64,000 nucleotides of DNA from Winogradskyella marina (lineage in GTDB: Bacteria; Bacteroidota; Bacteroidia; Flavobacteriales; Flavobacteriaceae). This document shows positions 18,901 to 63,149 of this stretch, piece after piece (the stretch's first letter is position 1; each line of letters opens with the position of its first letter). Under the pieces are notes generated by a model. It worked only from the letters and a program-made list of their open reading frames with translations, had not been told where the DNA came from and did not search any database. The position numbers and the translations under genes were made by a program. The stretch is taken from assembly GCF_015645385.1 (NCBI RefSeq), contig NZ_JADOET010000001.1, positions 124,001 to 188,000 of the forward strand, written 5' to 3'.

Positions 18901-20621
<1,721 letters not shown>

Positions 20622-21205: not shown

Positions 21206-21230
21206 TTTGTCATTCCTGCCAAAGCAGAAA
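21206..21230. repeat. Half copy of the TGTCATTCC palindromic repeat
   Basis: A single hairpin beginning TGTCATTCCTGC with arm AGCAG matches the right half of the element at 18901-18975. It sits in the leader of the HMA gene. Confidence 0.55.
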
Positions 21231-57565: not shown

Positions 57566-57571
57566 ATGTCA

Positions 57572-57591
57572 CCTCGAGCGCAGTCGAGAGG
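57572..57591. repeat. Palindromic repeat, copy A (CC/GG variant)
   Basis: The copy reads CC-TCGA-GCGCAG-TCGA-GA-GG. Its partner B lies head to head after a nine-base spacer. Compared with copies B, C and D the outer pair is CC/GG in place of GG/CC, so base pairing is kept. Confidence 0.85.
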
Positions 57592-57600
57592 TTTTATTTA

Positions 57601-57620
57601 GGTCTCGACTGCGCTCGACC
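57601..57620. repeat. Palindromic repeat, copy B
   Basis: The copy reads GG-TC-TCGA-CTGCGC-TCGA-CC and continues into CAGACAAA. It is identical to copy D (61665-61684) including flanks, and is the inverted form of copy C. With copy A it makes a palindrome between kynU and kmo. Confidence 0.85.
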
Positions 57621-57626
57621 AGACAA

Positions 57627-61275: not shown

Positions 61276-61294
61276 CAGATAAATAGTTGAATAT

Positions 61295-61322
61295 TGTCTG
61301 GTCGAGCGCAGTCGAGACCTAT
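61295..61322. repeat. Left inverted repeat of the GIY-YIG unit (copy C)
   Basis: The sequence contains GG-TCGA-GCGCAG-TCGA-GA-CC (61300-61319) with flanks TGTCT and TATT. It is the exact inverse of the right repeat (61663-61690) over about 28 bases. Confidence 0.88.
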
Positions 61323-61343
61323 TTATGAAATTCAAATTTTATT

Positions 61344-61661
61344 ATGAAACTCTATTATGTTTATATACTTCAGTGTTCAGACAATTTAACTTATACAGGT
61401 GTTACAAATAATATTTCTAGACGATTTGAAGAGCATCAAAAAGGTCTAAACAAAAATTGTTTCACTTTTAAAAGAAGACCTTTAAAACTAATATTTCACC
61501 AAGAATTTAACGATATTGAACAAGCAATATACTTTGAAAAGAAGATAAAAAAGTGGAGTGCAAAAAAGAAATATGCCTTAGCCAATGGAGAATTTGATTT
61601 GTTACAAATTTTATCAGAATGTAGAAATGCAACACATTCAAATTATAATCCTGAAAACTAA
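61344..61661 (+). CDS. GIY-YIG nuclease family protein bracketed by inverted repeats
   Basis: The 105-residue protein is one GIY-YIG domain of the UvrC-like/YhbQ group. It has the motif pair YYVYIL (residues 3-8) and YTGVTNN (17-23), the arginine in ISRRFEEH (near residue 27), and the metal-binding glutamate in AIYFEKKIKKWS. There is no DNA-binding appendage. Perfect inverted repeats lie 22 bases before its ATG and one base after its stop. The gene interrupts the kynurenine cluster between the dehydrogenase and SDR genes, and its function there is not evident. Confidence 0.85.
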   Translation: MKLYYVYILQCSDNLTYTGVTNNISRRFEEHQKGLNKNCFTFKRRPLKLIFHQEFNDIEQAIYFEKKIKKWSAKKKYALANGEFDLLQILSECRNATHSNYNPEN

Positions 61662-61662
61662 G

Positions 61663-61690
61663 TAGGTCTCGACTGCGCTCGACCAGACAA
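61663..61690. repeat. Right inverted repeat of the GIY-YIG unit (copy D)
   Basis: The sequence contains GG-TC-TCGA-CTGCGC-TCGA-CC (61665-61684) and ends in AGACAAA. It is the inverse of 61295-61322 and identical to copy B at 57599-57627. It may also act as a terminator for the nuclease gene. Confidence 0.88.
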
Positions 61691-63110: not shown

Positions 63111-63140
63111 CTGAGATGCTTTGACTGCGCTCAGCTTGAC
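63111..63140. repeat. Diverged palindromic repeat before the ACMSD gene
   Basis: The core GACTGCGCTCAG shares GACTGCGCTC with copies B and D, followed by GACA. CTGAG and CTCAG arms could pair. It is a diverged member or relative of the same family. Confidence 0.55.
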
Positions 63141-63149
63141 ATATAAAAT

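Follow-up and report, generated by a model that had tools for sequence, protein, structure and literature searches.

The question raised by this locus is whether a small GIY-YIG nuclease gene of Winogradskyella marina and the two inverted repeats that enclose it belong together, and if so, what kind of unit they form. The features concerned are collected in Table 1; "the window" is the whole stretch of DNA analysed, 64,000 nt long. A first-pass annotation, made from the sequence alone, had described exact inverted 28-base repeats on either side of the gene, the interruption of a kynurenine operon, and a layout recalling REP elements and their RAYT transposases with a GIY-YIG enzyme instead. 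The repeats held: as reverse complements the arms are identical at 28 of 28 positions (97% over 32 nt), the upstream one ending 22 nt 5' of the ATG and the downstream one beginning a single base past the stop codon. The operon held as far as its genes are concerned, the same-strand neighbours being kynurenine-pathway genes. Kynureninase and 3-hydroxyanthranilate dioxygenase scored above the NCBIfam cut-off, aldehyde dehydrogenase (ALDH), SDR and Rid genes were identified by Pfam, and a FAD-binding protein and an amidohydrolase-family protein are further neighbours. The likeness to REP/RAYT systems is supported by the association and the clade pairing described below.

Table 1. The GIY-YIG gene, its flanking repeats and related repeats (positions counted from the first base of the window)
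Feature	Position	Strand	Basis and remarks
GIY-YIG nuclease gene	61344..61661	+	105 aa; ORF and Pfam
Left repeat	61294..61321	+	28-nt arm TTGTCTGGTCGAGCGCAGTCGAGACCTA; tag TGTC 61295-61298, palindrome 61300-61319
Right repeat	61663..61690	-	Exact inverted copy; palindrome 61665-61684, minus-strand tag TGTC 61686-61689
Gene-free head-to-head dimer, same repeat family	57567..57625	.	Between kynureninase and FAD monooxygenase gene
Single related repeat GCTTTGACTGCGCTCAGCTTGACA	63118..63141	-	One copy, related to the arms

Each arm contains an imperfect palindrome, GGTC-GA-GCGCAG-TC-GA-GACC, flanked on the outside by TGTC. The W. marina genome has 20 copies of it at three or fewer mismatches and none of a reversed control pattern, and in several of the genomic variants both sides of the stem are altered together. 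Perfect identity between arms is atypical: where such repeats flank a gene on both sides (76 genes), the two stems differ in 46 cases and agree in 30. In L037, L045 and L047 a different, compensated left stem stands at the position of the window's left repeat. The window unit is unusual in that the left repeat has come to match the right.

The annotation had proposed checking whether GIY-YIG genes lie between inverted copies more often than expected by chance, and they do. Each gene was scored by the best ungapped inverted match between its own flanks, with a threshold of 14; this was reached by 101 of 142 GIY-YIG genes and by four of 248 control ORFs from these loci (at least 90 aa, not length-matched to the GIY-YIG genes), so the bracketing is not due to chance. 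When flank pairs were drawn across genes, 1192 of 4000 also reached 14; these share repeat types. By source, the proportions were 66/74 for close relatives, 19/48 for further rows from relatives at genus and order level, and 16/20 for the family-wide set. The close relatives, 79 distinct loci, were the best 80 of 141 found in genome contigs, and almost all carry titles of Flavobacteriaceae or Bacteroidota; the other sources were matches in the genomes of 40 relatives, 149 family genomes, and fetched stretches. The 170 rows assembled came to 158 after removal of 12 duplicates and to 142 usable ones, 16 being excluded from flank scoring for length, a broken frame or a missing flank, including L013 and L016 from W. 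marina itself.

A repeat of this type was found near all 75 intact-length close relatives among the 80 loci (L074, L077, L078, L085 and L091 were excluded), within 200 bp upstream or between the last 60 nt of the gene and 200 bp downstream. The nearest was of type A in 73 cases and of type B in two. For 13 of the 75, the 3' end of the reading frame contains the downstream repeat, which is translated into protein tails such as GLDSARPD. The repeat-type motifs were written after the flanks had been seen, so these label counts are not blind. W. marina itself has eight relatives of the 105-aa protein, all with palindromes on both sides that differ from gene to gene (by eye), and it encodes three long proteins with a GIY-YIG domain that have no such flanks. 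The association between repeats and GIY-YIG genes is real and general.

Some individual loci depart from the simple arrangement. L016 (G000:C8:33580-33771) is a truncated 64-aa GIY-YIG frame still enclosed by perfect 30-nt inverted copies of a different palindrome, possibly a decayed unit, an inference from its sequence only. Three tandem or near-tandem type-D GIY-YIG genes occur at L174 (G016:C56:172000-179000), and L126 and L138 (G021:C3:383093-384119) are two nearly identical type-D genes, again tandem or near-tandem. In L128, L142, L074, L078 and L226, the GIY-YIG domain opens reading frames of 417-459 aa; in L142, Pfam finds no second domain in the remaining ~350 aa.

Whether the repeats form a hairpin was judged from 152 distinct type A and B repeats, 137 of which have the tag TGTC pointing outward. 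Because the search pattern fixed the core, only the stem and the tag carry information. At the four inner positions of the outer stem, standard pairs are present in 97-98% of repeats, in several compensatory types, and at the fifth in only 42%; over all five positions 86.3% are paired, compared to a mean of 62.0% and a maximum of 65.7% in 1000 shuffles. In folding, window-type hairpins were no stabler than their shuffles (z 0.22 and 0.45), and stability was rejected as evidence for this type; its structure therefore rests on covariation. The repeat beside L015 is stabler than shuffles (z -3.9). Elsewhere in the window there are other TGTC-tagged palindromes, one facing pair at 18901-18974 and a single one at 21208, of types ATTCCGCACTTGATGCGGAAT and ATTCCTGCG..GCAGGAAT.

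Each nuclease clade goes with its own palindrome type. When repeat types are mapped onto a tree of 143 nucleases, their labels require 15 changes (the minimum is 7), compared to a mean of 57.8 when shuffled, and none of 200 shuffles was as low. The tree has limits: 16 of the 143 genes are unlabelled, the alignment has few columns, and 68 of 137 inner branches are unresolved. For the loop base, 14 changes are needed (shuffled mean 22.6, minimum 19). A confounding effect of one repeat type per genome was rejected, since several nucleases, each with a different palindrome, coexist in single genomes.

The dispersed copies also follow the resident enzyme. In 34 genomes their loop variant tracks the resident nuclease (one-sided p 0.0015): where the unit has a G loop (12 genomes), the CTCC variant makes up a median 0.88 of the copies, and where it has a C loop (22 genomes), 0.04. 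The majority variant agrees with the unit in 8/12 and 16/22 of these, respectively, and fails in 4/12 and 6/22; the count subtracts the unit's own two copies, so that in some genomes just one or two remain. In Winogradskyella, the seven genomes with a type-A nuclease carry more copies than the 18 without (one-sided p 0.02, or 0.04 when W. marina is left out). There are exceptions: G020 has 27 type-A repeats with no GIY-YIG relative detected at E 1e-8, and G012 has 23 copies and no type-A nuclease.

The enzyme is conserved. The 105-aa protein matches the GIY-YIG domain PF01541 (E 1.6e-18; 67.2 bits, cut-off 22.6), the only Pfam domains of the gene between the repeats are GIY-YIG and T5orf172, and an NCBIfam search of the protein returned no family. 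Y7, Y17, R27, H31, E65 and K76, which are taken here to be the catalytic positions of the GIY-YIG family, are invariant wherever aligned in 143 proteins. Of 13 pairs compared, two are saturated and 11 give an omega of 0.04-0.08; the nuclease is under purifying selection. The nearest solved chains are the UPF0213 proteins 1zg2 (BH0048; E 1.3e-10) and 1ywl (EF2693; E 1.8e-7), which share domain and size with the window protein but differ in being hypothetical proteins. Homing-type matches in PHROGs were weak for L015, and there were none for the window protein.

The ends of the unit are polar. In 24 of the 76 two-sided genes, a left CCTC stem is combined with a right GGTC stem, and the reverse was found in none of the 76. 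Among 17 distinct gene-free head-to-head dimers, picked from facing pairs and counted by eye, none has like stems and seven have the CCTC/GGTC pair. The dimer between the kynureninase and FAD monooxygenase genes (Table 1) has both ends exactly equal to the gene-unit ends of L043, L045, L047 and L069. Similar dimers are found in this gap in four other genomes; 30 loci were inspected, and for eight of them the computed gap was 0. By analogy, the gene-free dimer would relate to the gene unit as a MITE does to a full element.

The placement of the gene suggests long residence. Among the 75 relatives, 19 have it in this same gap, seven before the ALDH gene, seven otherwise near these genes and 42 elsewhere; in two more before ALDH (L058 and L061) the reading frames run on into the ALDH gene. 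With 19 of 75 sharing the gap, a recent insertion at this junction is unsupported. Slot labels need 15 changes on the tree compared to 29.8 when shuffled, so the place of the gene is largely inherited, and most near-identical genes are at homologous places, so inheritance is mainly vertical. The unit is an old resident of the kynurenine operon at this junction, not a fresh insertion. The proposal would have been refuted had every relative carried a fixed vertical gene here, which is not so: the gene is at this junction in five of 25 Winogradskyella genomes. As the annotation had stated, no target-site duplication could be found, the 20 gene-free Winogradskyella gaps being too diverged to show one, and no clean empty site was found in the loci compared. 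In L145, L150, L157, L160 and L163-L167, the same ALDH-SDR junction holds other inserts, of 390-540 bp, without a GIY-YIG gene; some such inserts in gene-free relatives are edged by other palindromes.

Signs of exchange between species come from a few close comparisons. In three Winogradskyella genomes (L010, L136, L123), a type-B unit lies between type I restriction and methylase genes (Pfam), with runs of extra repeats alongside. The unit of L010 is 95% identical to that of L136 or L123, the adjoining restriction gene 83%, and the edges of the conserved block fall within 2 nt of the tags, except for one edge in one pair, 10 nt outside. Silent divergence in this hsdR-hsdM gap is 0.15-0.17 for the nuclease and 1.19-1.39 for hsdR. 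For L045/L047 it is 0.018 for the nuclease and 0.454 and 0.357 for its neighbours, and in the kynurenine operon the nuclease is likewise less diverged in L045/L053, L047/L053, L070/L065 and L058/L061. Of 38 pairs, 26 have a lower divergence in the nuclease than in ALDH, and the means, 1.05 and 1.11, are close. Lower divergence of the unit is thus clear in a few close species pairs and a weak trend overall. G145 has two type-A genes, 86.5% alike, at sites without flank homology. Block identity and the G145 pair are compatible with exchange of the unit as a block, a possibility that falls short of proof of transposition.

More distant relatives bear on a known group of repeats. CGTC-tagged REPs are short palindromes, one end of which carries an unpaired tag (CGTC, or TGTC in many). 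They are mostly arranged as head-to-head dimers, often of unlike partners, and in a 2013 survey seemed to have no dedicated transposase (Di Nocera et al., 2013, PMC3733652). They include the Neisseria dRS3 sequence (CGTC-1) and Rickettsia RPE sequences, and their hosts include Azospirillum lipoferum, Sinorhizobium meliloti, Novosphingobium aromaticivorans and Neisseria (PMC3733652). A protein search with L015 returned 33 records from a plasmid collection, and the 16 loci read span Alpha-, Beta- and Gammaproteobacteria, one cyanobacterium and one cytophagian. Tagged head-to-head hairpins are present on both sides of the gene in 9/16 and on at least one side in 11/16, compared to 0 and 0.3% in shuffled flanks; when hairpins overlapping the gene end are included, the numbers are 10/16 and 11/16. 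No head-to-head tagged hairpin was found at the other five (Planktothrix, Sinorhizobium K101, Rhizobium tumorigenes, Photobacterium and Spirosoma). The loci are not all independent, two from Sphingobium being near-identical and several from Rhizobiaceae. Hosts shared with the 2013 survey are A. lipoferum, S. meliloti (hairpin on one side), N. aromaticivorans and Neisseria. The Planktothrix agardhii plasmid gene (L238), without tagged hairpins, lies between an MmeI-type restriction enzyme and the DISARM gene drmA.

The best explanation is likely to be a REPtron-like unit (probability roughly 0.72), in which a GIY-YIG enzyme replaces the HUH/tyrosine transposase (RAYT) between cognate repeats with outward tags. 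The association, the clade pairing, the covarying hairpin, the conservation of the enzyme and the same-ended dimers are shown; cleavage and transposition are inferred. That the nuclease processes the hairpin, as first suggested, is still inference, with no cleavage data. The nuclease is predicted to recognise the tag and bulged hairpin of a folded single strand, which it would nick; repair of the nick or replication would then let the unit be copied or exchanged as a block, and gene-free, MITE-like dimers would follow the same route. Several results stand against this reading: the unremarkable stability of the window hairpin, the fifth stem position, G020 and G012, and failures of the loop rule, together with mostly homologous placement, a divergence pattern in just 26 of 38 pairs, the lack of a target duplication or empty site, and 5/16 distant loci without a hairpin.

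Of the rivals, hitch-hiking, in which common intergenic repeats stand beside the gene by accident, is very unlikely and was rejected. Repeats do occur elsewhere in the operon, and other palindrome pairs are found at the junction in gene-free relatives, but accident does not account for 101/142 genes with inverted flanks as opposed to 4/248 control ORFs, for clade-specific pairing, or for the lack of such flanks at three long W. marina proteins with a GIY-YIG domain. A role like that of Ssn remains possible. In a 2025 study, the GIY-YIG family Ssn is reported to cut repeated single-stranded sites in Neisseria, and it reportedly has many homologues with sequences of their own. On this view the enzyme cuts single strands at specific, dispersed sites that control DNA uptake or recombination; the repeats next to the gene are mere target sites, and the enzyme spreads nothing. 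Besides this precedent, it is favoured by mostly vertical placement and by a GIY-YIG gene of the gonococcus that lies among CGTC-tagged hairpins and whose product shares 33% identity with the window protein across 75 residues. Alone, however, it leaves unexplained the two-sided repeats with polar ends, the same-ended gene-free dimers and the tag-bounded block identity.

Homing-like allele replacement is also conceivable, the nuclease cutting a gene-free, repeat-bearing allele and the unit being copied from a donor at the same place. It would fit the hsdR-hsdM gap (nuclease 0.15-0.17, hsdR 1.19-1.39, edges within 10 nt of the tags) and the low nuclease divergence in L045/L047, L045/L053, L070/L065 and L058/L061; GIY-YIG enzymes include homing endonucleases, and L015 has its weak PHROGs homing matches. 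However, 12 of 38 pairs do not show the pattern, 105 codons are few, and ordinary recombination between species could give the same result.

The REPtron-like reading has a bolder form, in which the partner missing from the CGTC/TGTC-tagged REP superfamily is the GIY-YIG nuclease, across a range running from Flavobacteriaceae to Alphaproteobacteria and Neisseria; this would be a second class of REPtron without HUH transposases, with dimers as MITEs and the unit exchanged between species as a tag-bounded block. Taken jointly, the balance tips slightly against all of this being correct. CGTC-tagged repeats are widespread, the enzyme, if any, that spreads them was left open in 2013 (PMC3733652), and GIY-YIG nucleases are a candidate; each is predicted to be specific for its own repeat, leaving the repeats of other clades unrecognised. 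If this is true, two unrelated nuclease folds have converged on one kind of repeat system, tag plus hairpin, and matched enzyme/site pairs, hundreds of them, would be available for the study of site-specific single-strand action.

Among known systems, TnpAREP/RAYT combines an HUH enzyme with a tag, a bulged hairpin, and co-evolution of enzyme and repeat (PMC8266576). The window unit resembles a REPtron in having a gene flanked by cognate tagged imperfect palindromes, co-evolution, dispersed copies and dimers (PMC8266576). It is read as working like one, yet is not one in two features: its enzyme is GIY-YIG and not an HUH/Y1 transposase, and its tag is TGTC and not GTAG. Ssn is reportedly also a small GIY-YIG protein tied to a repeated palindromic site, and may be the nearest precedent for the proposed activity if that report applies; it is not known to have polar unit ends or gene-free derivatives. 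No published link between GIY-YIG genes and such repeats was found in the literature searched (titles and the starts of abstracts, with subscription papers mostly outside it). What is added beyond Ssn, on the same proviso, is the CGTC-REP link, the polar-ended unit, the gene-free derivatives and block exchange. Of the CGTC-REP features, the window type meets the TGTC tag with a palindrome, the copy number (20) and the head-to-head dimers, but not the 8-9 bp stem starting with AT pairs or the CCA tail: its stem has about four outer pairs and a bulge, without the tag-adjacent AT pair that is nearly invariant in PMC3733652. Stem and tail are both met at L015 (by eye) and at most cross-phylum loci that have a repeat, and the repeats at L015 and beside the Rhizobium, Aeromonas, Azospirillum and Neisseria genes fit the CGTC-REPs directly. 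The CGTC-REP paper (PMC3733652) gives no gene partner for its repeats, whereas those in the window have a GIY-YIG gene.
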